From Methylophilaceae bacterium (GTDB taxonomy: Bacteria > Pseudomonadota > Gammaproteobacteria > Burkholderiales > Methylophilaceae), in NCBI GenBank assembly GCA_018398995.1, contig CP073759.1, positions 310,001 through 374,000 on the forward strand: DNA of 64,000 nucleotides, in the 5' to 3' direction. The notes beneath the pieces were generated by a model that searched no databases, had not been told where the DNA came from, and saw nothing but the letters and a program-made list of their open reading frames with translations. Position numbers and translations under genes: made by a program. Positions within the stretch are counted from its first letter, which is position 1. Every line of letters starts with the position of its first letter. Shown here in pieces: positions 31,571-51,137 of this stretch.

Positions 31571-34162
31571 TTATGAGACTGACTCAGTAATTGGAATCAC
31601 CTTTTTACCAGTACTTAAGGTATCTAATGCAGCTTTATACGCTGTCATCTGATTAAAGTTGAGGTACTTATAGATATTATCAACATCTGCCAGCTTGTCG
31701 CCTACTGTTTGCAAATACTCAGCATGCGTTGGGATTCTACCCAACTTAGCACAGACAGCAGCAAGCTCAGCAGAGCCTAGATAAACGCGTGCATCTTTAC
31801 CCATACGATTATCAAAGTTACGCGTTGATGTCGAGAACACAGTCGCTTTATCTTCTACGCGCGCTTGGTTGCCCATGCACAAGGAGCAACCAGGCACTTC
31901 TGTTCGAGCGCCTGCCTTGCCAAAGACCGAATAAACCCCTTCATCACGTAATTGCGCCTCATCCATTCTAGTGGGTGGTGCAATCCATAAACGGGTTGGA
32001 ATATTGCCTAAACCATCTAATACTTTTGCCGCGGCGCGATAATGGCCAATATTGGTCATGCAGCTGCCAATAAAGACTTCATCAATTTTGTCTCCCTGTA
32101 CGGCTGATAATGGCTTCACATCATCAGGATCATTTGGACAAGCAACCAATGGCTCTGTGATCGTTGCCAAATCGATTTCAATCACATGCGCATATTCTGC
32201 ATCATCATCTGCTGTCATTAAACTTGGGTTTGCCAACCACGCTTGCATGCTTTCAATGCGGCGCTGTATCGAACGGGCATCTTGATAGCCGTTTTCGATC
32301 ATATTTTGTAATAAGACGATATTGGAATTTAAAAACTCTTTCACCGACGCTTCACCCAACTGCACAGTACAGCCATTGGCTGAACGTTCTGCTGATGCGT
32401 CTGATAGCTCAAATGCTTGCTCGACTTTTAAATCAGGCAACCCTTGAATCTCTAATACGCGACCGTTAAAAATGTTCTTTTTACCTTGTTTTGCCACAGT
32501 TAAGCTGCCTTCTTGAATCGCCGCATAGGGAATCGCATTAACCAAATCGCGCAAAGTAATACCAGGTTGCATTTCACCTTTAAATCTTACCAGCACCGAC
32601 TCTGGCATATCCAAAGGCATTGCACCCGTTGCAGCGGCAAACGCCACCAATCCCGACCCTGCTGGAAAAGAAATGCCAATCGGGAAACGGGTATGAGAAT
32701 CACCACCAGTACCAACGGTATCAGGCAAAATCATACGGTTTAACCATGAGTGAATAATGCCATCGCCGGGCTTCAAGGTCACACCACCACGACTAGAAAT
32801 AAATTCTGGCAATGTATGTTGTAGATTAATATCAACGGGCTTAGGATAAGCGGCTGTGTGACAGAAACTTTGCATGACTAAATCGCTGCTAAAGCCTAAA
32901 CAAGCCAGCTCTTTCAATTCATCACGCGTCATACCGCCAGTCGTATCTTGTGATCCAACCGTTGTCGCTTTTGGCTCACAATACGTACCTGCTCGTACAC
33001 CTTGCCCCTCTGGTAAGCCACATGCACGACCCACCATTTTTTGCGCCAAGGTAAACCCTTTACCTGTATCTTTTGCTGGCACAGCTTGAATAAAAATATC
33101 TGTTTCTGGCAAATGCAATGCTTTTCGGGCATTGGCAGTTAAACCGCGACCAATAATCAGTGGAATACGGCCGCCAGCACGTACTTCATCCGCAATCGTC
33201 ACTGGATTCATCTTAAATTCAGCAATCATCTCATTGGCTTCATTGAAAATTTTTCCTTCAAACGGCTTAATGGTAATCACATCACCAGTGTTCATTTTTG
33301 ACACATCACATTCAATTGGAAATGCGCCTGAATCCTCTGCCGTATTAAAGAAAATAGGAGCGATTTTATTGCCAATCACTACGCCACCAGTGCGTTTATT
33401 AGGCATATTTGGAATATCTTGTCCTGTCCACCACTGTACAGAGTTAATTGCTGATTTTCGTGAAGAGCCCGTACCAACGACGTCGCCGACATAGGCAACT
33501 TGGTAGCCTTTCTTTTTTAAGGTCGCAATTGTTGCTAGACCATCTGCCATTTTATTGATTAACATGGCATTAGCATGCAATGGAATATCGGGGCGGCTCC
33601 ATGCTTCTTGTGCTGGGCTCAAATCATCGGTATTGGTTTCACCATCAACTTTAAAAACAGCCACTTTCATTTCTGCTGGCATAGCAGGTTTGTTTGTAAA
33701 CCACTCTGCATTTGCCCAAGATTCCATTAATTGTTTAGCGTATGGATTGCCCGCCTTCATTTTTGCTTCTACATCATAAAACGCGTCATACATTAAAATC
33801 GTTTTAGCCAATGCCTTTACCGCTTGCTCTGCTAAGTCGGTATCAAGCAATTCAACCAAAGCCAGTACGTTATAGCCGCCTAACATGGTACCCAGCAACT
33901 CAACTGCCTTTTCTGCACTGACTAAGGGTGAGTTTGTTTCGCCTTTGGCCAGCGCTGACAAAAATGCAGCTTTTACATACGCTGCTTGATCAACCCCAGC
34001 GGGTGTTCGGTTGGCCAACAAGTCAACCAACAAATCTTCCTGACCTTTTGGTGGGTTTTTTAATAACACAACCAACTCAGCGACTTGCTCAGCCGTTAAT
34101 GGTAGTGGTGGTAAATGCGCTTCAGAACGCTCTTTAACGTGTATTTGGTATGCTTCTATCAT
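31571..34162 (-). CDS. acnB: aconitate hydratase B (also 2-methylisocitrate dehydratase activity)
   Basis: This [4Fe-4S] enzyme interconverts citrate and isocitrate; AcnB is also known to hydrate 2-methyl-cis-aconitate in the methylcitrate cycle. The product has the AcnB N-terminal HEAT-like domain, [38 protein letters not shown] and [13 protein letters not shown], where the cluster cysteines lie. The start at [13 protein letters not shown] matches the family, giving 863 residues; an ATG eight codons upstream also exists. With prpB, prpC and prpD nearby, and no acnD/prpF seen here, AcnB probably supplies the second methylcitrate step. It is the last gene of the left operon. Confidence 0.96.
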
Positions 34163-34214
34163 ATGCTTTATTTCATTTCCTAACATTAACGTTTGATAAA
34201 ATATGTACGTCTCT

Positions 34215-34508
34215 TTATTTGACTAATTCTTTTGCAAATGATGTGCCACAACTTTTTGTATTGGCCGCAATTTCCCACCTGTCTAGCAATGCTTTTTGAT
34301 AATCAGCACCATGTTTAAGCGCTAAAAAAGCACGAACTTCAGCCACATCTGCAAAGCCATTATGATCGGTATCCATTATTGCAATATTATCTTCTACGCT
34401 AGGGCCGGTATATTTGCCGTTATCATCCGTTAGATAACCCAAGATTTCTACTGCATAGCCTAATGATGCACCCATCGACAAACCAGCCATCAATATCCAT
34501 TTAGTCAT
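34215..34508 (-). CDS. secreted EF-hand protein in the acnB operon
   Basis: This 97-residue protein has a signal peptide ([19 protein letters not shown]) and one clear EF-hand calcium loop, [13 protein letters not shown], with Asp, Asp, Asn, Gly and Glu in the expected places. A second helix-rich part follows, with one late cysteine. The ATG at 34508 follows GAGGTG at six bases; an in-frame GTG three codons upstream lies inside that site. It sits between fumA (80 bases) and acnB, an odd place for an exported calcium-binding protein. I do not know its role. Confidence 0.7.
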
Positions 34509-34597
34509 TTTTTTCACCTCGATTCATACTACCATTTTGATCGAGATTAATCTATTTACTCAGCTTGCAAGGTGACTTACAGCACATTACATTATGC

Positions 34598-36133
34598 CTA
34601 TATGGGCTTAATCGCGATTGTCTGCGCAGCCATTTTTTGTTTCCATAACGCTGGCCCAGATTGATGCACAGATTCGCCATTAGCACTTACTGCCACGGTG
34701 ACGGGCATATCAACCACATCAAATTCATAAATCGCCTCCATACCTAAGTCGGCAAATGCGATGACTTTTGCATGCTTAATGGCTTTACTCACCAGATAAG
34801 CTGCGCCACCAACTGCCATTAAATAGACAGACTGGTGCTGAGCGATAGAAGCTAATGCGGCTTCACCTCGCTCCGCCTTGCCGACTGAGCCTAACAGCCC
34901 TGCATCCAACATCACATCACTGTAACTGTCCATTCTTGTTGCCGTTGTGGGGCCTGCAGGACCAACCGCTTCACCACCAACAGCATCTACCGGCCCTACG
35001 TAATAGATAAAGCGATTACTAAAATCGACAGGTAATTGTTCACCTTTGGCAATCATGTCAGCAATGCGCTTATGAGCAGCATCGCGCCCTGTCAGCAATT
35101 TTCCAGATAGCAATAGTGTTTGTCCCGCCGCCCATGTTTGGGTTTCTTGCTTAGTCACTGTATTCAAATCCACCCGCTTAGCATGCGCATCTGGCGCCCA
35201 TGTGATGTCAGGATAAGCACCCATGTCTGGCGGCACCAATGCTGCAACGCCAGTTCCATCCAACTCAAATTCGATATGTCTTGTTGCCGCACAATTTGGA
35301 ATAATTGCCACTGGCAAACTGGCTGCGTGCGTTGGATAATCTAATATCTTTACGTCTAATACTGTTGTTAAACCACCCAAACCTTGCGCGCCAATACCTA
35401 AATTATTCACTTTTTCATATAGAGCCAACCTGAGCTCTTCAATGCGATTGCTAGCACCTTTTTCTTTTAAGAGATGAATATCAATTGGCTCCATCAATGA
35501 TTCTTTTGCCATTAGCACAGCTTTTTCTGCACTGCCGCCAATACCAATACCCAACATACCTGGCGGACACCAGCCAGCACCCATTTGGGGCACAACCTGC
35601 ATCACCCAATCTTCAATACTGTCATTCGGATTCAACATGGTTAATTTTGCTTTATTTTCCGAACCACCGCCCTTAGCAGCAATTTTTACTTCAATTTTAT
35701 TGCCAGTTACGAGCGAAATATGCACCACAGCTGGCGTATTGTCACCCGTATTGGTGCGCTTGCCAGCGGGATTTGTCACAATGGAAGCTCTGAGTTTATT
35801 TTCTGGCAATAAGTAGGCACGCCGCACCCCTTCATTGACCATTTGCTCCACATCTAAGGCCGTATTTCCCACATCACTTTCCCACTGCACATCCATGCCC
35901 ACTTTAACAAAAGCAACAACGATGCCAGTATCTTGGCAAATAGGTCGTTTGCCTTCTGCACACATGCGTGAGTTAGTCAAAATCTGTGCAATCGCATCTT
36001 TTGCCGCAGGCGATTCTTCGCGTTGATAAGCTTCAGCTAATGCTTGAATATAATCTTGCGGATGATAATAAGAAATAAATTGCAGCGCATCTGCAACACT
36101 TTGTATGAAATCTTCTTTTTTGATCAAGGTCAT
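34598..36133 (-). CDS. fumA: fumarate hydratase class I
   Basis: This oxygen-sensitive [4Fe-4S] enzyme hydrates fumarate to malate. The 511-residue protein has both the alpha part (GKRPICQDTGIVVAF, KAKLTMLNP, MGAGWCPPGMLGIGIGGSAEKA) and the beta part (GPTTATRMDSYSDVML) in one chain. It is not the class II type. It follows the acyl-CoA ligase by three bases. With SdhABCD and malic enzyme upstream, it completes a succinate-to-pyruvate path in one operon. Confidence 0.94.
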   Translation of the reverse strand: MTLIKKEDFIQSVADALQFISYYHPQDYIQALAEAYQREESPAAKDAIAQILTNSRMCAEGKRPICQDTGIVVAFVKVGMDVQWESDVGNTALDVEQMVNEGVRRAYLLPENKLRASIVTNPAGKRTNTGDNTPAVVHISLVTGNKIEVKIAAKGGGSENKAKLTMLNPNDSIEDWVMQVVPQMGAGWCPPGMLGIGIGGSAEKAVLMAKESLMEPIDIHLLKEKGASNRIEELRLALYEKVNNLGIGAQGLGGLTTVLDVKILDYPTHAASLPVAIIPNCAATRHIEFELDGTGVAALVPPDMGAYPDITWAPDAHAKRVDLNTVTKQETQTWAAGQTLLLSGKLLTGRDAAHKRIADMIAKGEQLPVDFSNRFIYYVGPVDAVGGEAVGPAGPTTATRMDSYSDVMLDAGLLGSVGKAERGEAALASIAQHQSVYLMAVGGAAYLVSKAIKHAKVIAFADLGMEAIYEFDVVDMPVTVAVSANGESVHQSGPALWKQKMAAQTIAIKPI

Positions 36134-36136
36134 GAA

Positions 36137-37795
36137 TTATCTTGTGCTCTTTGCTATTGCAATCGAAGGCGTAATATCTTTACGTAAAATTTTGCCATTT
36201 TTAGTTCTGGGAAAATCGTTAGCAAAGTAGATGACTTTTGGCACTTTATACGCGGCTAGATGCTCTTTACCAAAAGCAATTAAATCATTTGGACTAACAC
36301 TAGCATTTGGCTTCAATATTGCATAACAAGCGACTAGCACTTTATCTTTCTCTAGCGCTTCACCAATCGCTGCACAATCCGCAACGTCAGGATGTCCTTT
36401 ATACACGCGCTCAATTTCATATGGCGATACACGATAGCCAAAACTTTTGATAATGTCGTCTTTACGTCCCAAGAACCAAATGTAGCCATCTTCATCATAT
36501 TTGGCATAATCCCCTGTGAAAAAATAGCCATCGTGCTTATATTTTGCCGTTTCCTCATCCAAGTTCCAATAGCGTAAAAACACACCCGGATCGTCAAGTG
36601 GAATGCTAATCATACCTTCCTCGCCCACTGGCACTTCTGTTAAGGTTTCCGGGTCTAGTAATTTAATCGCATGTCCCGGTTGAGCAAAACCGGCTGAGCC
36701 AGCGCGTATTGGGCGATAAATGCTTTGCGACAGGTAATAAGAAAACTCGCTCATGCCTACCGCTTCGTAAATATCCAATCCAAATCGCTGTTCCCACTGA
36801 TGCAAGACTTCATCGGATAAATGCTCACCCGCACTCATAAAATGTCGAATACTCGGCAAGTCTTTTTTATCCGTTGTTGTCTTTTGTAAAATTTGACGAT
36901 AAATGGTTGGCACACCAATAAAAATAGTTGCCTTGTGTTTTTGTATTAAATCCAACCATTTTTGTGCGTCATTTTTACCTTCGTGCACAATGACTGTTTT
37001 ACCTAAATAGAGCGGGTCCATCAAACCTGAGCCCAATACATAGGTCCAATTAAACTTACCAGAGTGCATAATTCTATCTTGCGTATTCTCTGCATAATTG
37101 AACCAATATTTAGCTGCAGGTTGTCGCCCTAACATGGCGCGGTGAGCATGTAAGACGCCTTTGGGATAACCCGTTGTACCTGAGGTATAAACCAAGTAAG
37201 CGGGATCATCCGCTAGGGTTTTCTCGGCAGGCTGAATCTCTTTAATGGCCATCAACGCCGCTTTTAAACTCAATACATTGAGCACGTCATCTGTTTCAAC
37301 TTGATCTGCTTCAGTAACAAGAATATGTTTTAGATGTGGTGTTTCTTGCAGATTTTGTTTAATTTGTGCAGACATTGCCTGCCATGCTTTCGCATCGGTA
37401 ACCAAGACAGAAGCACCTGAATCCTTTGCTAAATAAGCAACTTCTTCAGCGGTCAATAATGTTGAAGTAGGCACTGCAATAGCGCCCATTTTCATGGTGC
37501 CTAAAAAAGCAATGGGATAAGCCAAACTGTTCGGCAAACGGACTAATACACGATCGCCTTTATTCAGCTTAAGATTGCGTAGCAACTGGGCAAACTGATT
37601 GGTTTTATGCGACAACTCAGTAAATGTAATGGTGTCTGTTCCTAAGGCATCATCTTCTACTATCATGGCTAACGAATCTGCAAGCGGCGTGTTTATTTGG
37701 CTATCAGCACATGCAGATCCAATATTAAAGAATGTAGGTACTTTCCATTCCCATTTTTCGAATGGTTCAAACGGTTTCAATAGGTTATGCATCAT
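36137..37795 (-). CDS. AMP-dependent acyl-CoA synthetase/ligase, substrate unknown
   Basis: This adenylate-forming enzyme would activate a carboxylate to its CoA thioester with ATP. The 552-residue protein has the P-loop-like YTSGTTGYPKGVLHAH, the segment EAVGMSEFSYYLS, FFTGDYAKYDEDGY and the terminal lysine motif PRTKNGKILRKDI. Length and motifs fit the medium-chain/benzoate-CoA ligase-like group rather than PrpE (about 630 residues). It overlaps the CitE-like gene by four bases (ATGA). In this operon a dicarboxylate such as mesaconate, or another acid feeding the methylcitrate cycle, is a plausible substrate; this is inference. Confidence 0.85.
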   Translation of the reverse strand: MMHNLLKPFEPFEKWEWKVPTFFNIGSACADSQINTPLADSLAMIVEDDALGTDTITFTELSHKTNQFAQLLRNLKLNKGDRVLVRLPNSLAYPIAFLGTMKMGAIAVPTSTLLTAEEVAYLAKDSGASVLVTDAKAWQAMSAQIKQNLQETPHLKHILVTEADQVETDDVLNVLSLKAALMAIKEIQPAEKTLADDPAYLVYTSGTTGYPKGVLHAHRAMLGRQPAAKYWFNYAENTQDRIMHSGKFNWTYVLGSGLMDPLYLGKTVIVHEGKNDAQKWLDLIQKHKATIFIGVPTIYRQILQKTTTDKKDLPSIRHFMSAGEHLSDEVLHQWEQRFGLDIYEAVGMSEFSYYLSQSIYRPIRAGSAGFAQPGHAIKLLDPETLTEVPVGEEGMISIPLDDPGVFLRYWNLDEETAKYKHDGYFFTGDYAKYDEDGYIWFLGRKDDIIKSFGYRVSPYEIERVYKGHPDVADCAAIGEALEKDKVLVACYAILKPNASVSPNDLIAFGKEHLAAYKVPKVIYFANDFPRTKNGKILRKDITPSIAIAKSTR

Positions 37796-38901
37796 AATAA
37801 TATTCCATATGGCCAGTTTTGACGGATCACCTGTTCAGGTAACATTGCAAGCACTTCAAGTGCAAATTCTGTATCACTTTTTTTCAACGCTCTCAAGGCG
37901 TGCGCCCTTAACAGAGTTTGTAAGGCTTTGCCAAACATAGGCGGATCTAACATTTCCCCCTCAAACTTGATTGCACCCCCTAATAAAGCATCGGCTTCAA
38001 TGGCTGCTTTTAAAATATTCACTTTTTTTGTCACTTCGGTAGGTGAAGGCGTATAAGCTGTTTTACATAAATGAATATGCCCAGGGTGAATGGTTTGTTT
38101 GCCAGTCAGGCCCATTGCCGCCTCTTCACAGGCGTGTTTATAAACAACACGCGCTTGATCGTCGCCATGTAAATCCAACCAACGACGCACATCGTGCGGC
38201 TCCACAAATTTCTCTGGCATGATATTAGAGCCTATCAGCGTTTCCACGCCGCCAATTACACCAACACCCGCAATACGCGACTCAAACAACAATGCGTGCA
38301 TATAGAACTGTAGCTCTGCTATCCAGTTTTCAGGTGTAATATGAATCCCCATCGCTTTTGAGAAGTCGTGAATACCAAATACCACATGTTCAACTGTTTC
38401 ATATTGCATCAGTTCTGGTGCAATTCTGAGTGATTTTGGGTGCTCTATAATCGGCTGAATGGTAATTTTCTCATTCACCTCTAATAGTAAACTGGACAAA
38501 TCACGTACTTCTGCCGCCCCATATGCCTCGCCTGCTTTTGCTAACATCACGACATTGATATAGTCGCCCATATCTCGCACTAGCTTCATATCCTCTTCAT
38601 ATTCATCTGTGCGGAACGAGTTAACACGCACGGCAATGGTGACGCGCTCATTCATTTTGCGTAATAAAGGCAGTTCTTGGCGCAATAATTGCCGACTCAT
38701 TTCTTTCTGGCGGCAGCCATCTTCTAAATCAAATATCAAGGTATGCGCATTGGTAAAATGTGCGTGTTTTTTCATACGTGCTGAAGCTTGCTCCATATCC
38801 TCATAGATACCCAGGCTTGGTGCATACTTGATTGGTGGATAATAAAGCTGTATCCCTGGCCAGTAATTGCCAAGCGATTTCATATCGTCTTGTTCTGTCA
38901 T
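37792..38901 (-). CDS. CitE-like (HpcH/HpaI) lyase, copy A
   Basis: This 369-residue TIM-barrel protein of the citrate-lyase-beta/malyl-CoA lyase family would cleave or form a 3-hydroxyacyl-CoA by aldol chemistry. All four conserved active-site positions are present: Glu60 and Asp61 in FDLEDGC, Arg92 in VRVN, Glu153 in IIEHP and Asp179 in GIHDF. It is longer than MclA (about 320), with extra residues at both ends. It starts at the sdhE stop (TAATG) and overlaps the ligase gene. Candidate activities are malyl-CoA, beta-methylmalyl-CoA or citramalyl-CoA lyase; sequence alone cannot choose. Confidence 0.85.
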   Translation of the reverse strand: MTEQDDMKSLGNYWPGIQLYYPPIKYAPSLGIYEDMEQASARMKKHAHFTNAHTLIFDLEDGCRQKEMSRQLLRQELPLLRKMNERVTIAVRVNSFRTDEYEEDMKLVRDMGDYINVVMLAKAGEAYGAAEVRDLSSLLLEVNEKITIQPIIEHPKSLRIAPELMQYETVEHVVFGIHDFSKAMGIHITPENWIAELQFYMHALLFESRIAGVGVIGGVETLIGSNIMPEKFVEPHDVRRWLDLHGDDQARVVYKHACEEAAMGLTGKQTIHPGHIHLCKTAYTPSPTEVTKKVNILKAAIEADALLGGAIKFEGEMLDPPMFGKALQTLLRAHALRALKKSDTEFALEVLAMLPEQVIRQNWPYGILL

Positions 38902-39191
38902 TAAAAGTCCCTTAAAACGTAGCTACTTACCGCATTGAGCTTTGTGATGATGTTATTTAAATGTTGGTTGTTCTGCGCTTTTTGCGATTGAATCAACGCC
39001 CAAAATTCATTGTCTGGCAGGTCTAATAAGCCATCAAACACTTCAAACTCTTTAAGCGACAAATCATTAAATTGCTCATTCACAAAACGCTGTAAAACAA
39101 TATCCAGCTCCAACATGCCACGGCGACAGCGCCAAGCCAATCGCCTTTGTTCAGCATCAAGCATTATTTCTGCATTAATCATATTAGGCAT
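38901..39191 (-). CDS. sdhE: succinate dehydrogenase assembly factor SdhE
   Basis: This small protein helps attach FAD covalently to SdhA. The motif RLAWRCRRGMLELD contains the RGxxE signature. The frame is open back into sdhB; I place the start at MPNMINAEIM, one base after the sdhB stop, giving 96 residues against a usual length near 90. The ATG 20 codons upstream would overlap sdhB by 59 bases and is less likely. The gene lies between sdhB and the CitE-like gene, overlapping the latter by one base. Confidence 0.85.
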   Translation of the reverse strand: MPNMINAEIMLDAEQRRLAWRCRRGMLELDIVLQRFVNEQFNDLSLKEFEVFDGLLDLPDNEFWALIQSQKAQNNQHLNNIITKLNAVSSYVLRDF

Positions 39192-39192
39192 C

Positions 39193-39930
39193 TCATAATG
39201 GGTTGATTGAAAATATCTTTTTATTAGATTTCTTTTCTTTTGCGCGCTCAATTTTTAAATCTTTAATCTTTGAGATAGCCGCGTTTGGGTTCAGCTGCTT
39301 TGGACAAACCTCAACGCAATTCATAATGTTATGGCACCGATATAAACGATAAGGATCTTCTAGATTTTCTAAACGCTCTTCTTCTGCTTGATCGCGCGAA
39401 TCTGCGATAAAGCGATAAGCCTGTAATAAGCCGGCTGGTCCAACAAACTTGTCTGAATTCCACCAAAAACTTGGACAAGACGTAGTACAAGCACCACACA
39501 ATATACATTCGTATAACCCATCTAACTTTGCTCTATCTTCAGGGCTTTGTAACCTTTCAGTTTCGGGTAATGGATCATTGTTTTGTAAGTAGGGCTTCAC
39601 AGAATTGTAATGCTCAAAAAACTGGGTCATATCGACCACCAAATCACGAATCACAGGCAGGCCAGGCAAAGGCCTAATGACAACAGGCTGCTCTAAATCT
39701 GCAATATTGGTAATACAAGCCAAAGCATTTTTACCATTGATATTTAACGCATCACTACCGCACACACCCTCGCGACAAGATTTGCGCACGCTCAATGTTG
39801 GATCTTGATGTTTCACCCTAAGCAAAGCATCCAACAACATATGCTCGCCTTCTTGCAGTTCAATCTCATAATCCTGCATGTAGGGCTTTTTATCGGTATC
39901 TGGATTAAATCGGTAAATCGATAGTTTCAT
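39193..39930 (-). CDS. sdhB: succinate dehydrogenase iron-sulfur subunit
   Basis: This is the electron-transfer subunit of complex II, carrying three Fe-S clusters. The 245-residue protein shows the [2Fe-2S] ligands CREGVCGSDA...LAC, the [4Fe-4S] motif CILCGACTTSCP and the [3Fe-4S]/[4Fe-4S] region CHNIMNCVEVCPKQLNP. The C-terminal tail is basic. It follows sdhA by two bases and precedes sdhE. Confidence 0.97.
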   Translation of the reverse strand: MKLSIYRFNPDTDKKPYMQDYEIELQEGEHMLLDALLRVKHQDPTLSVRKSCREGVCGSDALNINGKNALACITNIADLEQPVVIRPLPGLPVIRDLVVDMTQFFEHYNSVKPYLQNNDPLPETERLQSPEDRAKLDGLYECILCGACTTSCPSFWWNSDKFVGPAGLLQAYRFIADSRDQAEEERLENLEDPYRLYRCHNIMNCVEVCPKQLNPNAAISKIKDLKIERAKEKKSNKKIFSINPL

Positions 39931-39932
39931 GA

Positions 39933-42038: not shown

Positions 42039-42045
42039 AGAGTCA

Positions 42046-42420: not shown

Positions 42421-43624
42421 TCGCCATACCCTTTAGTGCTGCCTCTTTTACGGCTGTTGATACTTTTTCTAACAATCTTGGATCAAATGGTTTAGGAATA
42501 ATATAGTCCGGACCAAAGGTGAGTGAAGTTAATTTGTATGCCTCAAGCACCTCGGCTGGAACAGGTTCATGTGCCAATTCACCCAGTGCTTTTGCCGCTG
42601 CAACCTTCATTTCTTCTGTGATTTTTTTGGCTTTGGCATCTAATGCGCCACGAAACAAATAAGGAAAACATAGCGCATTATTGACCTGATTAGGAAAGTC
42701 GCTACGTCCTGTCGCCATAATAATGTCATCTCGTATGGCATGTGCCACACTGGGTAACACTTCAGGATCTGGGTTTGCTAATGCAAATATAATGGGATTT
42801 TTTGCCATGCTTTTTATTAAACCAGCATCTAATGCATTCTTAGCAGAAACACCAATAAAAACATCGGCGTCTTGCATGGCATCTGCAAGGGTTTTAACAG
42901 CACTCACCTCAACCGCGAGATCGATATTATTGTCATGTAAATCTTGACGACTTTTATCAATCACCCCTTTTTTATCAACCATCGTGATATTGCTTGCCCC
43001 CATGTGCTTTAATAGTTTTGCACATGAGCAACCGGCAGCACCCGCACCCAAAAAGACAATTTTGGCCTGATGAATTGTTTTTGACTGCAATTGCAGCGCG
43101 TTCAATAACGCCGCCCCCACAATCACCGCCGTGCCGTGCTGATCATCATGAAACACAGGAATATCCAAATGTTGTTTCAGCTGTTTTTCAATATAAAAGC
43201 AATGTGGCGCCGCAATATCTTCTAAATTAATGCCCCCAAAAGTTGGCGCAATATTGATTACAGTCTGAATAAACGCGTCAGGACTAGCCGCATTTACTTC
43301 AATATCAAATACATCAATACCAGCAAAGCGTTTAAACAAAACGGCCTTACCCTCCATCACAGGCTTACTGGCTAAAGCGCCCGTGTTACCCAGACCCAAG
43401 ACAGCACTGCCATCGGTAATCACCGCAATCAGATTGCCTTTGTTGGTGTACTTGTAAGCATCCGCTGGATTATCACGAATCGCCATGACAGGTACCGCCA
43501 CGCCCGGGGTATAGGCTAACGATAAATCGTCTTGTGTTAAACATGGCTTGGTCGATTCAACACTCAACTTTCCAGGCATAGGAAACTGGTGATAATCTAA
43601 TGCACGTTTTTCTAATTCTGTCAT
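42413..43624 (-). CDS. maeB: malic enzyme (single-domain, MaeB-like)
   Basis: This enzyme decarboxylates malate to pyruvate with NAD(P)+. The 403-residue protein has [28 protein letters not shown], the metal segment [24 protein letters not shown] and the nucleotide-binding [16 protein letters not shown]. It lacks the phosphotransacetylase domain of the 750-residue MaeB type. As first structural gene after the GntR regulator, it would convert malate from FumA into pyruvate. The frequent malate dehydrogenase of betaproteobacterial TCA clusters is absent here. The gene may have its own promoter in the 51-base gap after gntR. Confidence 0.93.
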
Positions 43625-43675
43625 GGTTGCTTCTCTTTTCTATACAGGTTGAATCTATTATCTATTGACAACGCT

Positions 43676-44410
43676 TTATTCCAACTCACTCATATAATGA
43701 TGATCGTCGGTTAAACATAGTCCAAGTCGCCACTCCATCGGTTTATCGCCATAGGTAAACGATACACGCTCAATACTTAACAACGGATGACCCTGCTTCA
43801 AACCCAACGATTGTGCAACGCTTGCTTCTGCTTCCACTGCTTTTAATCGTTCTTCAGCACGCACCATTCTTACGCCAAATTGCGCCTCATACATGCTATA
43901 CATAGAGCCACTACTTTCTTCTACCTTTGCTCTATTAAGTCCTTTGAATGCTGCCGCAGGCACAATAATGTGATCATGAATCAATGGTCGGCCAGAAAAA
44001 GTAAGTAATCTTTTTACCTCTATCACACTCGCACTGGCTTTAATCTCTAGTATTTTGGCTATATAAGCACCGGCTTTTGACTTTGTGCAGGAAATAAATG
44101 CATTATTTAATAGCTCTTTATGTCCCGTTTCAGATGTTAATCGCAAGAATCGCAACTTAATATCGTCTTCTTTATGGGTTGCCACATAAGTACCTTTGCC
44201 CTGGCGCCGAATAACGATATTTTCAGTGGCTAAGCTATCAATCGCTTTTCTAACGGTGCCCTGACTGACCTTATAGCGCATTGCCAACTCAACTTCACTT
44301 GGAATCACTTCGCCTGGACGCCACTCACCGCCAATTAAGCTTTGCGTAATGAGCACTTTAATCTGATCGTAAAGAGGGCGATAACTCGGTGAATTTAATT
44401 GTTTATCCAT
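43676..44410 (-). CDS. GntR-family regulator (HutC/UTRA type)
   Basis: This 244-residue regulator has an N-terminal winged helix-turn-helix (YDQIKVLITQSLIGGEWRPGEVIPSE...AMRYKVSQGTVRKAIDSL) and a C-terminal UTRA-type ligand domain (about 85-240). UTRA regulators usually sense a small metabolite of the pathway they control. It stands between the two divergent operons, facing away from the right one, with a palindrome-rich gap upstream, so it is the natural candidate to control both. The ligand is unknown; methylcitrate, mesaconate or a CoA ester would make sense. Confidence 0.9.
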   Translation of the reverse strand: MDKQLNSPSYRPLYDQIKVLITQSLIGGEWRPGEVIPSEVELAMRYKVSQGTVRKAIDSLATENIVIRRQGKGTYVATHKEDDIKLRFLRLTSETGHKELLNNAFISCTKSKAGAYIAKILEIKASASVIEVKRLLTFSGRPLIHDHIIVPAAAFKGLNRAKVEESSGSMYSMYEAQFGVRMVRAEERLKAVEAEASVAQSLGLKQGHPLLSIERVSFTYGDKPMEWRLGLCLTDDHHYMSELE

Positions 44411-44500
44411 ATACGCAATCTATCAACCTAAAAATTTAATTTCCAATAAGCGTGTATGCAAGCCATGACACACTCTCCAATTATTTACATACTTTATATC

Positions 44501-44555
44501 ATAGATAAATATCGTTTGTCTATCTATTTTATATCTTATATAAGACATAAGATAT
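44501..44555. promoter_or_regulatory. palindrome cluster, candidate GntR operator
   Basis: The gap between gntR and the right operon has a perfect 9-bp inverted repeat, ATATCTTAT-N7-ATAAGATAT (44531-44555), enclosing a perfect 12-bp palindrome, TCTTATATAAGA. The half-site ATAAGA thus occurs three times. A second inverted repeat, ATAGATA/TATCTAT (44501-44527), overlaps a possible minus-strand promoter (TAGACA, 18 bases, TATAAA; 44493-44522). The position between divergent operons fits an operator, but no binding is shown. Confidence 0.55.
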
Positions 44556-44558
44556 ATG

Positions 44559-44586
44559 TTGACAGGCAAACAATTATCTTTATAAT
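44559..44586 (+). promoter_or_regulatory. sigma-70 promoter of the right (citE-mch-prp) operon
   Basis: A perfect -35 TTGACA is followed after 16 bases by a perfect -10 TATAAT, about 31 bases before the first start codon. The palindrome cluster ends four bases upstream of the -35. Confidence 0.8.
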
Positions 44587-44617
44587 TAATGCCAACTAAA
44601 CACTTCGAGTTAGCATA

Positions 44618-45502
44618 ATGATGAATGAGCATATAAGACCAAGGCGATCGATGCTATATGTGCCAGGTTGCAATACACACTATCTTAATCGCGCGCGTAC
44701 ACTTGCAGCTGATGCGGTTATCTTAGATTTGGGCGACCCAATCTTAATTGATGCAAAAGTACAGTCGCGTTTAAATATTGTTGAAGCAGTCAAAGAAGGC
44801 GGTTATGGCAAGCGTGAAGTGATTGTAAGGGTCAATGACTTAGACTCCGAGTGGGGGCGCGACGACATTAAGGCTGTAGCCAATATTGGTGCTGATGCCA
44901 TTCTTTTCCCTAATATAGAATCAAAAGAAGATGTATTAACTGCACAACAATTACTGGATGAAGCGGGTGGCAGTCATATGCCTATTATGGTGATGATAGA
45001 AAGTCCACTGGCTGTATTAAATGCAAAAGAAATTGCAGCGGCATCCGACCGTATTAAATGCATGGTAATCGCAACTTCAGATTTAATCACCCAACTTCAT
45101 GCACGATACACGCCAGAACGCACCGCCATTTTAACGTCGTTATCTTTGGTTGTGCTTGCTGCGCGCGCGTACAAAAGAGCCGTCGTCGATGGGATTGCCA
45201 GCGATCTTAAGAATATGCATGCTTTTGAATATGCCTGCCGCGTTGGCAGAGACCTAGGCTTTGATGGAAAGTCCATCATCCACCCAGCCCAAATTGCCTA
45301 TAGCAATGATGCCTATACGCCTAAAGCGTCTGAAGTCAGCAACGCACGTGAAGTCATTAAGGCATTAAAAGAAGCACAAGCTTCTGGTAAAGGCACTGTG
45401 ATTGTTAATGATAAGTTTGTAGAAAATCATCATATTGCAGCGGCAGAACGCATTATCCAACTAAGTGAAATGATAGACGAATTGGAAGAAGAGTTTATTT
45501 AA
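44618..45502 (+). CDS. CitE-like (HpcH/HpaI) lyase, copy B, with Glu-to-Gly change
   Basis: This 294-residue protein is the most Mcl-like of the three CitE relatives here: SMLYVPGCNTHYL at the start, GFDGKSIIHPAQI late, and the tail IVNDKFVENHHIAAAERI. Arg71 (VRVND), Glu128 (MIESP) and Asp155 (ATSDL) are in place. The first active-site motif reads LDLGDPI instead of LDLEDAV, so the conserved Glu is Gly39. That may abolish or change activity, for example to a thioesterase-like or regulatory partner. It is the first gene of the right operon and overlaps mch by one base. Confidence 0.84.
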   Translation: MMNEHIRPRRSMLYVPGCNTHYLNRARTLAADAVILDLGDPILIDAKVQSRLNIVEAVKEGGYGKREVIVRVNDLDSEWGRDDIKAVANIGADAILFPNIESKEDVLTAQQLLDEAGGSHMPIMVMIESPLAVLNAKEIAAASDRIKCMVIATSDLITQLHARYTPERTAILTSLSLVVLAARAYKRAVVDGIASDLKNMHAFEYACRVGRDLGFDGKSIIHPAQIAYSNDAYTPKASEVSNAREVIKALKEAQASGKGTVIVNDKFVENHHIAAAERIIQLSEMIDELEEEFI

Positions 45503-46572
45503 TGACAAACACAACAAAAATTAGCAGCGGCAGATTTTTTGAAGACTTCGTTTTGGATGAGGTGATTCAACACGCCACGCCGCGCACCATCACAGCGGGC
45601 GATACTGCACTTTATATCGCCCTAACTGGAGCAAGAAACCCCCTACACTGTAGCGAGCCATTTGCGCAAAGTTTAGAGTATAAAAGCACACCGATTGATG
45701 ATTTACTTGCTTTTCATATTGCCTTTGGTAAAACCGTACCAGATATTTCTGTCAACGCTGTGGCTAATTTAGGTTATGCCGATGTCAAGTTTGCTCAACC
45801 TATATTCGTGGGCGACACATTAAGCACCGCTAGCCAAGTCATTGGTTTAAAGCAGAACTCTAACGGCAAAAGTGGCGTGGTTTGGGTGCGCTCTACCACT
45901 GTTAATCAAAATAACACACCCGTATTAAGCTGGGTACGCTGGGTGATGGTACATAAAAAACAAATGAGTACCGATGCACCTACAGCAGTGATCCCCTCAC
46001 TGCCTACCCATGTGGAGGCAAGCCAGCTACACATACCAAGCTATGTGCAAACACATGATGAAATCAGCAACGTCACGGGTGGCCAATATGTTTGGGATGA
46101 CTATGCCATTGGCGAGCGACTGAATCATGTTGCAGGCATGACAATTAATGAAAGTGACCACGCATTAGCAACCAGGCTTTATCAAAATAATGCGCGCTTA
46201 CATTTTGATGCGCATCTTATGCACAATGCGCCAATTGGAAAACGCCTTGTTTATGGCGGCGTTGTGATTTCGGTTTGCCGCGCGCTGAGTTATGAAGGCT
46301 TGGAAAATGCACTGAGCATCTTAGCTATTAATGGCGGCACACATGTTAATCCAACATTCGCAGGCGACACCATCTACACCATCACTGAAGTTTTGGATAA
46401 GTGGGCCTTACCAACCCGTCAAGATATAGGCGCTTTACGGTTACGTATGGTAGGTATTAAAAATATGTCTCCTAGCGCAATTGAGGCTATTAAAACCAAT
46501 CAAGACTACCACCAACATGTGGTATTAGATCTCGACTACACAGTGGCAATGCCACGTAAAGGAAATGAATAA
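45502..46572 (+). CDS. mch: mesaconyl-CoA hydratase (beta-methylmalyl-CoA dehydratase), MaoC-type
   Basis: This double hot-dog hydratase would interconvert mesaconyl-C1-CoA and beta-methylmalyl-CoA. The 356-residue protein has the Mch start GRFFEDF followed by HATPRTIT, then DDLLAFHIAFGKTVPDIS, NAVANLGYADVKF, ATRLYQNNARLHFD, LAINGGTHVNPTFAGDTIY and the end LDLDYTVAMPRK, all strongly like the ethylmalonyl-CoA pathway enzyme. That pathway is not otherwise visible here. It sits between two CitE-like genes with one-base overlaps and upstream of prpBCD. Making or consuming propionyl-CoA through beta-methylmalyl-CoA is the obvious hypothesis. Confidence 0.88.
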   Translation: MTNTTKISSGRFFEDFVLDEVIQHATPRTITAGDTALYIALTGARNPLHCSEPFAQSLEYKSTPIDDLLAFHIAFGKTVPDISVNAVANLGYADVKFAQPIFVGDTLSTASQVIGLKQNSNGKSGVVWVRSTTVNQNNTPVLSWVRWVMVHKKQMSTDAPTAVIPSLPTHVEASQLHIPSYVQTHDEISNVTGGQYVWDDYAIGERLNHVAGMTINESDHALATRLYQNNARLHFDAHLMHNAPIGKRLVYGGVVISVCRALSYEGLENALSILAINGGTHVNPTFAGDTIYTITEVLDKWALPTRQDIGALRLRMVGIKNMSPSAIEAIKTNQDYHQHVVLDLDYTVAMPRKGNE

Positions 46573-47555
46573 TGAGTGTACATCCAAGTGAAGCTTTATT
46601 TGGCGGCGAAAAGCCGTTCCCTTTAATTCCAACTTGTGAGCATTTTGCTGGCAGTGAAAAGTTAATTTTAAAAGCGCTCGGCTTGCAAGATACGATTGGC
46701 CCAGTGTTTGACATTACTTGTGACTGTGAGGATGGCGCGGCCAGTGGACAAGAGCGTGAGCATGCACAGATGATTGTCAACGTACTGACTTCTGATGCAA
46801 ACAAACACAAGATGGCCGGCGCGCGCATTCATGATTACACGCACCCTGCTTGGAAACAAGATATTGATATATTGGTTGCTGGCGCTGGAAACGTATTAAG
46901 TTACATCACCATACCAAAATGTACCGATGTTAATCAAGCACGAGAAATGATTGCCTATCTGCAAAAAATGGCAACCTTTAGCGGTATCACGCGTGAAATT
47001 CCAGTTCATATTCTGATTGAAACGCACGGTGCATTACATCAAGTACATGACATTGCCAAACTGCCTTGGTTGCAAGTACTAGACTTTGGCTTAATGGACT
47101 TTGTCAGCGCGCATAATGGCGCAATACCTGCCAGCGCAATGCGCAGCCCTGGTCAATTTGAACACCGTTTACTAGCAAGAGCAAAAGCGGAAGTCACTGC
47201 TGCTGCGCTAGGTAATGGCATCGTGCCTGCGCACAATGTCACCTTAGATCTTAAAAATGTAGAAACAACCTATAGTGATGCATCGCGTGCCAGAAACGAG
47301 TTTGGATTTATGCGCATGTGGAGCATCTACCCCACCCAGATTCAGGCGATTGTTGATGCAATGAAGCCTAATTTTGATGAAGTGATTGATGCTGCCAATA
47401 TTTTACTAACGGCACAAGCAGCAGACTGGGGCCCTATTCAATACGCAGGAGAGTTACATGATCGTGCAACTTACCGCTATTTCTGGGAAATTTTACAAAA
47501 GGCGAGACTCACTGGCGTCACTATTCCAGAGCAAGCCGTTATCGCATTCTTTTAG
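46572..47555 (+). CDS. CitE-like (HpcH/HpaI) lyase, copy C
   Basis: This 327-residue protein of the CitE/malyl-CoA lyase family has the full active-site set: Glu53 and Asp54 in DCEDGAASG, Arg85 in GARIHDY, Glu150 in ILIETHG and Asp176 in GLMDFVSAHNG. This subtype, as I recall, occurs in TCA clusters of other betaproteobacteria near sdh and mdh genes without a proven function. It overlaps mch by one base and precedes prpB by 16 bases. It is a better candidate for an active lyase than copy B. Confidence 0.84.
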   Translation: MSVHPSEALFGGEKPFPLIPTCEHFAGSEKLILKALGLQDTIGPVFDITCDCEDGAASGQEREHAQMIVNVLTSDANKHKMAGARIHDYTHPAWKQDIDILVAGAGNVLSYITIPKCTDVNQAREMIAYLQKMATFSGITREIPVHILIETHGALHQVHDIAKLPWLQVLDFGLMDFVSAHNGAIPASAMRSPGQFEHRLLARAKAEVTAAALGNGIVPAHNVTLDLKNVETTYSDASRARNEFGFMRMWSIYPTQIQAIVDAMKPNFDEVIDAANILLTAQAADWGPIQYAGELHDRATYRYFWEILQKARLTGVTIPEQAVIAFF

Positions 47556-47571
47556 TTAATGAAGGTCTATT

Positions 47572-48450
47572 ATGAGCAATCTTGAAACAGCAGGCATGCG
47601 CTTTCGCGCCGCGCTAGAAGCAGAAAGTCCATTACAAATTATCGGGGCAATTAATGCCTATCATGCAATGCTTGCAACACAATCTGGATTCAAGGCAATC
47701 TATTTATCAGGCGGTGGCGTAGCAGCAGGTTCGCTTGGCGTGCCAGATCTGGGCATTTCAACACTAGAGGATGTATTAATCGATGTTAGACGCATCACAG
47801 ATGCCGTCGATACGCCGCTACTAGTGGATATTGATACTGGTTTTGGTGGTGCATTTAATATAGCGCGCTCCATTAAAAGTGTCCAAAAAGCCGGTGCCGC
47901 AGCCGTTCATATTGAAGACCAAGTCAGTGCCAAACGCTGTGGCCATCGGCCCAATAAAGCGATTGTTAGTCAAAATGAAATGGTTGATCGGATTAAAGCT
48001 GCTGTAGACGCGAGAACAGATGATAGCTTTGTGATTATGGCCCGTACCGATGCACTTGCAGTTGAAGGCTTGCAATCTGCAATCGATCGCGCATGCGCTT
48101 GCGTTGAGGCTGGTGCAGATATGGTTTTTCCTGAGGCCATCACCGAACTTAATATGTATCAACAATTTGCCGATGCGGTTAAAGCACCCATTTTAGCCAA
48201 CATTACCGAATTTGGCTCAACACCGCTTTTTACTGTTAAAGAGTTAGCCACCGTAGATGTCAGCATGGTGCTCTATCCGCTTTCTGCGTTCCGCGCCATG
48301 AATCAAGCAGCACTGAATGTCTATACAGCTGTTCGTCAAGATGGCACACAACAGCATGTGATCGATACGATGCAAACACGCATGGCGCTTTACGACCACT
48401 TGGGGTATCACGCATTCGAACAAAAATTAGATGCACTTTATCAAAAATAA
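47572..48450 (+). CDS. prpB: 2-methylisocitrate lyase
   Basis: This enzyme cleaves 2-methylisocitrate to pyruvate and succinate in the methylcitrate cycle. The 292-residue protein has the catalytic loop [10 protein letters not shown] (Cys123), the metal region [10 protein letters not shown], and the PrpB-specific [11 protein letters not shown] and [13 protein letters not shown]. Length fits PrpB, not isocitrate lyase. It is followed 41 bases later by prpC. Confidence 0.96.
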
Positions 48451-48491
48451 CGATTTGAATAGTAAAAGAGCTTAAAAATAGGGAGATTAAA

Positions 48492-49652
48492 ATGAATACA
48501 TCAACCGATACCATGAATGAAGCGCCTAAAAAGAAAAAGGGCGTTGCACTCGCGGGGGTTTCTGCTGGTTCTACGGCTATTTGCACGGTAGGTCATACTG
48601 GTAACGACTTACATTATCGCGGTTACGATATTACTGAACTGGCAAATTACGCTACATTTGAAGAGGTTGCCTATTTACTTATTTACGGCGAACTGCCTAC
48701 CCAGCCGCAATTGGCCGCCTACCATCAAAAACTCAGAAAGTTACGCGGCATCCCTGCTGCACTCAAAACCGTTTTAGAACAGATTCCAGCTAGCGCTCAT
48801 CCAATGGATGTGATGCGCACGGGCTGCTCTATGCTTGGCACACTAGAACCAGAATCAGAAGATCACAATATTAACGGCGCCAGACAATTAGGCGACCGTT
48901 TGATTGCTTGTTTTGGCTCCATCTTGGTTTATTGGTATCACTACAGCCATCATGACAAACGCATAGAAGTTGAAACCGATGATGATTCAATTGCTGCGCA
49001 TTTTTTACATATATTGCATGGGGAAAAGCCAAAACAACTGCATATTGACGCCATGAATACTTCTTTGGTGTTATATGCCGAACATGAATTTAATGCATCA
49101 ACATTTACTGCGCGCGTTGTATCGGGCACGCTATCAGACATGTATTCGTGCATCACCAGCGCGATTGGTGCGCTGCGCGGTCCCAAACATGGTGGCGCAA
49201 ACGAGGCGGCGATGGAGATTATTCAACGCTATCAAACGCCAGATGAAGCAGAAGCCGACATCATGGCGCGCATGGCACGCAAAGAAATTGTGATTGGCTT
49301 TGGTCATCCTGTCTATACCATTGGCGACCCGCGAAACGAGTCAATCAAAGCAGTTAGTCATGCATTAAGTACAGATGCTGGCAACATGAATCTGTTTAAT
49401 ATTTCAGCGCGAATAGAAGAAACCATGTGGCGCGAGAAAAAAATGTTCCCCAATTTAGATTGGTACAGCGCTTCTAGCTATCACATGATGGGCATTCCAA
49501 CAGGCATGTTCACCCCTATTTTTGTCATCTCGCGCACCACAGGCTGGATTGCACATGCGATAGAGCAGCGCGTTGATAATAAAATTATTCGCCCAAATGC
49601 TGAATATGTCGGTCCTGAAAACAGGCCATATACACCAATCGAACAACGCTAA
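48492..49652 (+). CDS. prpC: 2-methylcitrate synthase
   Basis: This enzyme condenses propionyl-CoA with oxaloacetate to 2-methylcitrate. The 386-residue protein has the PrpC hallmarks [32 protein letters not shown] (catalytic His) and [13 protein letters not shown], with [18 protein letters not shown] near the end. AGGGAG precedes the ATG. It lies between prpB and prpD; no separate citrate synthase gene is in this window. Confidence 0.95.
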
Positions 49653-49676
49653 TTCCAATTTATTTAAAGGTTATTT

Positions 49677-51137
49677 ATGTCAAGCCACATTTCTAATGTA
49701 AGACCAAACCCAGACCAAGTCATCGTCGATATTGCTGATTACGTCGTAAACTATGAAATACAATCTGATGAAGCCTATGACACGGCGCGCAACTGCTTAA
49801 TCGATACGCTGGGTTGCGGTTTTGAAGCACTCGATTACCCTGCCTGTAAAAAACTACTAGGCCCAGTGATAGCAGGCACTGTTGTACCTAATGGCGCAAA
49901 AGTACCTGGCACCAACTATCAGCTAGACCCTATTTTGGCTGCTTTTAATATTGGCGCCATGATTCGTTGGTTAGATTTTAACGATACTTGGTTGGCAGCA
50001 GAATGGGGACACCCTTCTGATAACCTTGGCGGTATTTTGGCGGTTGCCGATTATTTATCTCGCAAGAGTGTTGCCGAAGGAAAAGCACCGCTCACCATGA
50101 AAGACGTGCTAACCGCTATGATTAAAGCGCATGAGATACAAGGCGTTCTGGCGCTTGAAAATAGTTTTAATCGCGTTGGTTTAGATCATGTCATTTTAGT
50201 AAAAATTGCCTCCACTGCTGTTGTGACCAAGCTATTGGGTGGCACTAAAGAAGATATCATCAATGCAGTTTCTAACGCATTTGTAGACGGTCAAAGCTTA
50301 CGCACTTATCGCCACTCACCCAACACTGGCTCACGTAAATCATGGGCGGCGGGCGATGCCACATCGCGTGCAGTCCGTTTGGCATGGATGACCATGCAAG
50401 GTGAAATGGGCTATCCTGGCGCATTAACAGCCAAAACTTGGGGCTTTTATGACGTGCTATTTAAAGGTAAGCCATTCCAATTTCAACGCACGTATGGCTC
50501 ATATGTGATGGAACAAGTGTTGTTTAAAATCTCATTTCCAGCAGAGTTTCATGCACAAACTGCAGTAGAATGTGCTTTTCAATTACATGCCGAAGTTGGC
50601 AGCAAATTACAAACATTAGCGCAAATTGCAGAAATCGACAAAATCGTCATCACCACCCATGAATCTGCTATTCGCATCATTGACAAAACAGGGCCGCTAG
50701 ATAACCCAGCCGACCGCGATCATTGCATTCAATACATGGCTGCCGTGGGTTTATTAAAAGGTAGTTTAACTGCCCAAGATTATGAAGATGCTGCAGCTGC
50801 TGACCAACGTATTGACGCCATCCGCGAGAAAATGGTGTGTGTGGAAAAAGCCGAATACACCAAGGATTACCATGATCCTGAAAAACGCTCGATTGCTAAC
50901 GCTATTCAGATTTTCTTTAAAGATGGCTCTAGTTCTAGCAATATCGCGGTCGAATATCCAATTGGACACCGTCGTCGTCGTGAAGAGGGTATTCCAGAAC
51001 TGGTAAAGAAATTTAAAGTGAATCTAGCGCGTCGATTTGATCAGAACACACAACAGGCCATTTTAGATTTATGTTTAGATCAAACCAAGCTCGAAAATAC
51101 GGCTGTCAATGCGTTTGTCGATATGATGGTGTTTTAA
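49677..51137 (+). CDS. prpD: 2-methylcitrate dehydratase
   Basis: This MmgE/PrpD-family enzyme dehydrates 2-methylcitrate to 2-methyl-cis-aconitate. The 486-residue protein shows [36 protein letters not shown], and [15 protein letters not shown] and [10 protein letters not shown] near the C-terminus. The length is the usual 480-490. AcnB from the left operon would then rehydrate the product to methylisocitrate. It is the last gene of the right operon; 84 bases separate it from purB. Confidence 0.95.

Follow-up and report, generated by a model that had tools for sequence, protein, structure and literature searches.

A methylcitrate cycle (MCC) cluster has been described for Methylophilaceae, with the genes prpCBD, cyl1, maoC, cyl2, gntR, mdh, sdhABCD, cyl3, prpE, fum and can (PMC4109929). 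This cluster shows high in situ expression, opposite to the ribulose monophosphate (RuMP) pathway, and which metabolites it processes was said to be something that "still remains unknown" (PMC3728764); in an OM43 strain, MCC transcripts were raised with dissolved organic matter (PMC5120137). A citramalate cycle was proposed for Rhodospirillum rubrum in 1997, and some of its enzymes "have not been identified" (PMC8490811). In Arcobacter butzleri, ab1917-ab1921 encode a CitE protein, a ligase with a CitE domain, a hydratase resembling mesaconyl-CoA hydratase (Mch), another CitE protein and a FumA-like protein; these genes were likened in 2007 to segments of the 3-hydroxypropionate and citramalate cycles, with suggested roles as mesaconyl-CoA synthetase and mesaconase and a proposed direction from glyoxylate and propionyl-CoA to pyruvate and acetyl-CoA (PMC2147049). 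Here we analysed a gene island in a Methylophilaceae bacterium whose genome (GCA_018398995.1) is a single contig of 2,025,576 bases (CP073759.1). The window, the 64-kb stretch analysed, comprises positions 310001-374000 of this contig, and the island occupies positions 31571-51137 of the window, in whose numbering all features of this genome are given. We propose that the island encodes a B12-independent form of the citramalate cycle that is fed by acetyl-CoA, a reading to which its gene content and context give, in our judgement, about an even chance of being correct.

In the proposed cycle, CitE(A) (37792-38901, minus strand), a member of an uncommon CitE subfamily, would join acetyl-CoA and pyruvate to citramalyl-CoA as a citramalyl-CoA lyase/synthase. 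Hydrolysis of this ester by CitE(B) (44618-45502, plus strand), a divergent CitE protein and candidate malyl-/citramalyl-CoA thioesterase, or by CitE(A) itself, would yield citramalate. FumA (34598-36133, minus strand), a class I Fe-S fumarase (TIGR00722 211 bits, cut-off 101), would additionally act as a mesaconase and dehydrate citramalate to mesaconate; hydration of mesaconate has been shown for class I fumarases from E. coli and B. xenovorans (PMC4682846). An AMP-forming acyl-CoA ligase (36137-37795, minus strand), the putative mesaconyl-CoA synthetase, would then produce mesaconyl-CoA, which Mch (45502-46572, plus strand) would hydrate to beta-methylmalyl-CoA and CitE(C) (46572-47555, plus strand), a proposed beta-methylmalyl-CoA/malyl-CoA lyase, would cleave to glyoxylate and propionyl-CoA. 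PrpC, PrpD, AcnB and PrpB would convert propionyl-CoA and oxaloacetate to pyruvate and succinate, and succinate dehydrogenase (Sdh), FumA and Mqo (mqo is present in the genome outside the island) would carry succinate back to oxaloacetate. Glyoxylate and a second acetyl-CoA would give malyl-CoA and then malate through one of the lyases together with CitE(B), and malic enzyme would convert malate to pyruvate, for a net conversion of two acetyl-CoA to malate or of one acetyl-CoA to two CO2. We infer from sequence which substrates the ligase and the three CitE proteins use, that FumA acts as a mesaconase and which way the cycle runs. The sequence itself shows the gene set, how well it is conserved, the shared operator and which enzymes were not found in the genome.

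Every gene named in the initial annotation is an open frame at the place and on the strand given there. Neighbours on the same strand overlap or lie 0-80 bases apart throughout the island, and the divergent gap between gntR and citE(B) is 207 bases. We called protein families on NCBIfam curated cut-offs, adding PDB chain matches for Mch, the CitE proteins and the ligase. The methylcitrate cycle set lies above its curated cut-offs throughout: methylisocitrate lyase PrpB (47572-48450, plus strand; TIGR02317 428 bits, cut-off 354), 2-methylcitrate synthase PrpC (48492-49652, plus strand; NF009006 681 bits, cut-off 550), 2-methylcitrate dehydratase PrpD (49677-51137, plus strand; TIGR02330 864 bits, cut-off 458) and AcnB, aconitase/2-methylisocitrate dehydratase (31571-34186, minus strand; TIGR00117 1475 bits, cut-off 1287). 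The mch product is identified as mesaconyl-CoA hydratase by full-length matches to PDB 4e3e (397 bits, with identity at 187 of 350 aligned residues) and to 8hgn, a 'beta-methylmalyl-CoA dehydratase' (355 bits). CitE(C) matches PDB 3qqw at 506 bits and 3r4i at 381 bits, and the chains closest to the ligase are benzoate-CoA ligases. Complex II is encoded on the minus strand by sdhB (39193-39930; NF004616 368 bits, cut-off 228), sdhA (39933-41690; TIGR01816 947 bits, cut-off 727), sdhD (41691-42038; TIGR02968 93 bits, cut-off 42) and sdhC (42046-42420; TIGR02970 106 bits, cut-off 52). The next gene (42413-43624, minus strand), initially annotated as maeB, does encode a malic enzyme, of 403 aa; it scores below the cut-off of NF009501 (522 bits, cut-off 1178) and matches only positions 8-404 of the 764-position model, and therefore has no phosphotransacetylase (PTA) half.

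The three CitE proteins are the only matches to the HpcH/HpaI (CitE) family in this genome. In malyl-CoA lyase the catalytic residues are Arg76, Glu44, Asp45, Glu141, Asp168 and Asp299, and within the CitE superfamily Glu is reported to replace Asp299 only in the R. sphaeroides malyl-CoA thioesterase group (PMC3832036). We assigned the equivalent residues in the island proteins by eye from alignments. All six catalytic positions are kept in 33 of 33 CitE(A) rows and, in a second set drawn from other families, in 22 of 22 (a Thalassotalea row is counted in both sets). In CitE(C), Glu53, Asp54, Glu150 and Asp297 are kept in every row reaching those positions, and Arg85 is present in 20 of 20 rows from outside the family. 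From these residues we infer that CitE(A) and CitE(C) are lyases. CitE(B), in which all 44 rows have Glu269 at the lid and 43 of them have Gly where malyl-CoA lyase has Glu44, is probably a thioesterase. For the ligase, three alignment rows (L037, L038 and L047) proved to be AcsA, so no residue counts were taken.

Neither the E1 component of 2-oxoglutarate dehydrogenase (OGDH; TIGR00239) nor malate synthase (PF01274) was found in any of 80 Methylophilaceae genomes, this one included. The B12-dependent acyl-CoA mutase family (PF01642) was matched in two of the 80 and not in this genome. Control genomes were positive for OGDH E1 (7/14), malate synthase (6/14), the B12 mutase (8/14) and the isocitrate lyase family (8/14). 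The latter family (PF00463) was matched in 46 of the 80, over approximately 85-110 of 526 positions and in frames of 293-353 aa; the only match in this genome is the island prpB (positions 150-247 of 526), and no isocitrate lyase was found. We rejected a glyoxylate cycle on the grounds that no malate synthase was found and that prpB is the sole match to the isocitrate lyase family. No closed cycle by known routes was thus found in this genome, which leaves glyoxylate without a canonical malate synthase. The initial annotation had pointed out that a complete ethylmalonyl-CoA pathway elsewhere could account for Mch; no methylmalonyl- or ethylmalonyl-CoA mutase match was found in the genome (Ccr was not searched), and we rejected this pathway as the reason for Mch here because the B12 mutase family has no match. 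One relative (G002) encodes a methylmalonyl-CoA mutase (L115 7199-9439; NF006944 930 bits, cut-off 876) about 6 kb from the island prpD, and this species may have two routes for propionyl-CoA.

Mch is found in 46 of the 80 family genomes, the present one among them. Across the 80, 45 genomes have both prpB and mch, 33 have neither, one (a draft, 76% complete) has only mch, and one has only a weak PrpB-like match. The presence of both genes in 45 of the 47 genomes having either bears out the earlier proposal linking Mch and the CitE proteins to the methylcitrate cycle. Surroundings were fetched for 40 of the 45 other Mch-positive genomes (G038, G049, G051, G052 and G059 were left out). In 32 of these 40 the genes run citE(A)-sdh-maeB-gntR-citE(B)-mch-citE(C)-prpB-prpC-prpD, as in the island, and the other eight stretches end at or near a contig end and agree as far as the sequence goes; the gene order of the island is therefore not due to chance. 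Among named relatives the closest is represented by a Methylotenera contig, on which citE(B) is 77% identical, mch 75% and citE(C) 84%. The order is retained in six 1.2-1.4 Mb genomes of one genus (g15; Mch in 6 of 7 sampled). In another genus (g13) Mch is absent from all 7 sampled genomes, which fits the published loss in Candidatus Methylopumilus (PMC6794327). The initial description of the assembly as unusual thus holds for its biochemistry and fails for the family, in which the cluster is conserved and has already been named (PMC4109929). Three relatives (G008, G018 and G012; loci L039, L040 and L047) show one stop codon in the mch match and have complete mch frames; this is probably the terminal stop.

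Additions to the island are few. In genus g3 (two of the 32 whole-order relatives), the interval from gntR to citE(B) also holds mqo, acsA and a small number of unassigned frames (mqo was scored for L037 only), and in genus g12 acsA also lies inside the island. The acsA products of both genera score 962-965 bits against TIGR02188 (cut-off 725) and 559-561 bits against the PrpE model TIGR02316 (cut-off 827). The other 30 whole-order relatives contain no extra frame of at least 100 aa inside the island, and therefore no transporter there.

Outside the family, a CitE(A) profile search matched 22 of 399 genomes of the order (six of them Methylophilaceae) and 6 of 369 genomes of the class (the present genome included). 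An early impression that CitE(A) is unique to this genome (one of 398 genomes of the phylum) was rejected, as that figure reflects the genomes sampled. Mch is present, linked or not, in 20 of 21 CitE(A)-positive genomes outside the family; the miss is a 340-contig draft, and the count includes one partial match (G800) and two matches with a stop codon. The five genes citE(A), ligase, citE(B), mch and citE(C) occur together in 9 of the 21 (groups f7, f11, f98, f114, f129, f184, f206 (twice) and f254). The f129 cluster reads ligase-citE(A)-maeB, then gntR, then citE(B)-mch-citE(C)-prpBCD, with a kinase/pyrophosphorylase gene and a phosphoenolpyruvate (PEP)-synthase-type gene behind the ligase; a PEP-synthase-type gene is present at locus L110, and one f206 genome (L112) has an acetate kinase domain about 2.3 kb past mch, separated from it by unassigned sequence. 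The module is flanked by a reductase gene of the acrylyl-CoA/quinone type in f114 (L100 10625-11695, TIGR02823 over cut-off) and in Thalassotalea (L008 3501-4574, below cut-off). A plasmid search with CitE(A) gave 76 records; among the best 40 of these, none reached 60% identity and two covered most of the query. A conjugative plasmid of Cupriavidus oxalaticus (L004 7371-13477) carries mch-citE(C) beside genes for an MmgE/PrpD protein, an acyl-CoA dehydrogenase and a CoA-transferase; this set may encode an Mch-dependent route for methylsuccinate or itaconate.

The most informative of these outside groups is f104 (12 genomes), where the genes are divided between two loci. At the first, citE(A)-ligase and acsA diverge from each other in all 12 genomes, and fumA follows the ligase in 11 of them. 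At the second, fetched for 10 of the 12, gntR is followed divergently by citE(B)-mch-citE(C)-prpB-prpC in all ten, with sdhCDAB on the gntR side in nine. This division matches the two halves of the proposed citramalate cycle. Because fumA in f104 accompanies citE(A)-ligase and not sdh, its position favours a mesaconase role for the encoded fumarase. At one f104 locus (L102), acsA is followed by genes for a DUF294/CBS protein, an exonuclease and a VC_2705-type sodium/solute symporter. A UPF0114/TIGR00645 gene lies between the ligase and fumA at the two f104 loci that were annotated (L095 12387-13160 and L102 6939-7595).

The island appears to share an operator with these acsA genes. In the window the palindrome TCTTATATAAGA occurs once without mismatch (44534-44545), ending 13 bases before a sigma-70-type promoter of citE(B) (TTGACA-16-TATAAT; 44559-44586, plus strand) that agrees with the consensus at 12 of 12 positions. 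Of 46 distinct gntR-citE(B) gaps, 44 contain an exact copy (the other two have one and two mismatches; L110 and L150 are the same genome and were counted once), as do 11 of 12 acsA-citE(A) gaps of f104 (the miss is L108). Base-shuffled gaps came within one mismatch of the palindrome in 0.4% and 0% of cases. Further copies occur in the acsA-gntR gap of both g3 genomes and of g12, where the gntR start is less certain. No exact copy was present in the stretches read for clusters without gntR (Thalassotalea, f7, f98, f114, f184, f206 and f254). A one-mismatch copy at 62303 was taken as chance, as it lies inside a coding frame (62175-62867). The regulator gene (43676-44410, minus strand) encodes a HutC-type GntR protein that scores below cut-off (NF008491 116 bits, cut-off 269). 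The operator was rejected as a new find, since the motif published for the HutC-type regulator SdhR, TCTTATGTCTTATATAAGACATAAGA (PMC4494728), contains the island palindrome, with exact agreement at 44534-44545.

A flux model of the listed reactions, run without OGDH, isocitrate lyase and malate synthase, yielded 0.5 malate or 2 CO2 per acetate. Every island step was needed to produce CO2, and every step except malic enzyme was needed for malate. Per acetyl-CoA oxidised, the model gave 2 quinol and 2 NADH with one ATP-to-AMP step (acetate activation uncounted). We prefer acetyl-CoA as the entry point above all because of acsA, the metabolic gene that recurs by the core genes or shares their operator (f104, g3 and g12), and also because of the rarer mqo, PEP-synthase-type and acetate kinase neighbours, the shared operator and the finding that the island itself holds no transporter frame in 30 of the 32 relatives. 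These rarer genes, like the sodium/solute symporter, are each found only once or twice near the core. Beyond the island itself, we put forward tentatively, as a possibility, that Methylophilaceae oxidise acetyl-CoA fully via a citramalate-methylcitrate cycle without B12, OGDH, isocitrate lyase or malate synthase, and that one regulon holds the full gene set, which in other Burkholderiales would substitute for the glyoxylate cycle.

Several observations weigh against an acetyl-CoA-fed citramalate cycle. The flux model assumes pyruvate dehydrogenase, citrate synthase and isocitrate dehydrogenase, and it closes equally with mesaconate as input, so it does not discriminate the entry point. To our knowledge, growth on acetate is not typical of Methylophilaceae. 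Arcobacter, with its similar cluster, showed no growth on acetate (PMC2147049). Because the operator equals the published SdhR motif, acsA may share it as part of a general acetate/tricarboxylic acid (TCA) regulon. At one f104 locus (L140), the neighbours of sdh are citrate synthase and a frame for OGDH E1 that runs off the end of the stretch, and the route there therefore cannot be a substitute for OGDH. Eight of nine CitE(A)-positive loci outside f104 have no acsA, fumA or prp match within the stretch read, and the remaining annotated genes around them have unrelated housekeeping functions (mutL, mfd, an RNA helicase, purT, metG and others). CitE(B) is also less uniform outside the family: the lid residue is Glu in 17 of 20 rows and Gln in three, the metal-binding Asp is lost in three of 20, and the Glu44 position holds Gly in 12, Glu in three, His in four and Gln in one. 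With the lid Glu in only 17 of 20 outside rows and with metal-site positions that vary, CitE(B) could be inactive, degenerating or regulatory.

The initial annotation had the ligase activating a C5 acid, and the strongest rival to acetyl-CoA entry is of this kind: the island would degrade imported mesaconate, citramalate, methylmalate or itaconate. The ligase would make the CoA ester, Mch and CitE(C) would cleave one isomer to glyoxylate and propionyl-CoA, and CitE(A) would cleave citramalyl-CoA to acetyl-CoA and pyruvate. Every enzyme fits such a route, and three loci elsewhere suit it. In Thalassotalea mangrovi, the module reads citE(C), then citE(A)-ligase-citE(B)-mch, and is followed on the same strand by a sodium/solute symporter gene (nearest model PutP, 333 bits of 515), with no fumA, sdh or prp match nearby; the f11 module has a gene for a metabolite/H+ symporter (TIGR00883, 434 bits of 443) beyond the ligase; and the mch-citE(C) set of the C. 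oxalaticus plasmid resembles a methylsuccinate/itaconate cluster (PMC12290011). Both symporters would suit acid uptake and so count, like the observations above, against acetyl-CoA entry. The common partner in f104, g3 and g12 is nonetheless acsA, the 30 compact relatives leave no room for a transporter inside the island, the NCBIfam matches of the island proteins include no CoA-transferase, and the itaconate equivalogs RipB and RipC are far under cut-off (125 versus 340 bits and 120 versus 375 bits). The claim of C5-acid entry was therefore not upheld, and we consider an imported C5 acid a weaker reading than acetyl-CoA entry, and an unlikely one, although Thalassotalea and the f11 genome, with their transporters, may use a C5 route.

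A loop running in reverse, from propionyl-CoA and glyoxylate through mesaconyl-CoA and citramalate to acetyl-CoA and pyruvate, would follow the direction proposed for A. butzleri, whose similar five-gene cluster was so interpreted (PMC2147049), and reactions of malyl-CoA lyase are reversible (PMC3832036). Against this, the prp genes directly downstream already use up propionyl-CoA, and no isocitrate lyase was found in this genome to supply glyoxylate. AMP-forming ligases are also expected to favour formation of the CoA ester, and we regard the reverse loop as improbable here. Plain use of propionate or odd-chain acids by the methylcitrate cycle, with the ligase as PrpE and mch and the citE genes as side branches, gains from the unambiguous prpBCD and from the published annotation that places prpE in the cluster (PMC4109929). 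The ligase, however, lies under the cut-off of each of its 25 best NCBIfam models, among which there are no propionate-CoA ligase models, so that PrpE is not supported by these scores, and mch accompanies prpB too regularly for a side branch (45 of 47 genomes, those of 1.2-1.4 Mb included); this reading is similarly improbable. Lastly, a methylaspartate-type cycle that makes mesaconate from glutamate, with the island completing its breakdown, would suit a genome with an open TCA cycle and Mch, but neither glutamate mutase nor methylaspartate ammonia-lyase is among the island genes (the rest of the genome was not searched for them), and it is very improbable.

Two small genes of the minus strand have a weak family match or none. 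The frame between acnB and fumA (34215-34517) is present as initially annotated, and its EF-hand label has no backing from NCBIfam or from Pfam at E <= 1e-4; the predicted protein is secreted-looking and is kept in many relatives (17 complete frames were aligned). The frame called sdhE (38901-39251) is likewise present, with a listed TTG start and an overlap with sdhB, and its family match is weak (NF008130 36 bits, cut-off 120).

The island makes the function of the conserved, in situ highly expressed Methylotenera MCC cluster testable, and with it, in one gene cluster, the existence of the citramalate cycle. If the island does oxidise acetyl-CoA, the lack of OGDH would no longer be a sign that these methylotrophs cannot burn multicarbon compounds, and Methylophilaceae, held to have a broken TCA cycle for want of OGDH, might still run a respiratory cycle. 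A B12-free route of acetyl-CoA assimilation would then also be open to engineering.

Much of this has precedents: the citramalate-cycle idea is already stated for Arcobacter, and both the operator motif and the cluster are already in print. The gene list of the Methylophilaceae MCC cluster (PMC4109929, PMC3728764, PMC6794327, PMC5120137) corresponds to the island; unlike in our reading, no mesaconyl-CoA or citramalate role is assigned to maoC, prpE or any of the three cyl genes in the passages available from these papers. A literature search of titles, abstracts and passages, with few subscription journals covered, found no such reading of the cluster. The SdhR regulon shares the operator, as TCTTATGTCTTATATAAGACATAAGA includes the palindrome, whereas a link to acsA, citE(A), ligase and fumA is not named in the portions of PMC4494728 available to us. 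With the ethylmalonyl-CoA pathway the island has in common Mch and, on the roles proposed here, a beta-methylmalyl-CoA lyase and a malyl-CoA thioesterase of the CitE superfamily, but that pathway has a B12 mutase, a family without a match in this genome. The CitE thioesterase group shares with CitE(B) the lid Glu in place of Asp299 (E269), the lid residue being the only one compared (PMC3832036). The Arcobacter cluster, like the island, brings together CitE, ligase, Mch-like, CitE and FumA-like proteins in an organism that also has a methylcitrate pathway; unlike the island, it belongs to an Epsilonproteobacterium, fuses the ligase to a CitE domain, was proposed to run in the reverse direction and has its prp and fumarate reductase genes numbered elsewhere in the genome (PMC2147049). 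The R. rubrum cycle shares with the route proposed here the intermediates from acetyl-CoA and pyruvate to glyoxylate and propionyl-CoA, and the formation of malate from glyoxylate (PMC8307300, PMC8490811). In that form mesaconate is activated by CoA transfer and propionyl-CoA returns via methylmalonyl-CoA mutase, whereas in the island, whose genome has no PF01642 match, a ligase would activate mesaconate and the methylcitrate cycle would return propionyl-CoA.

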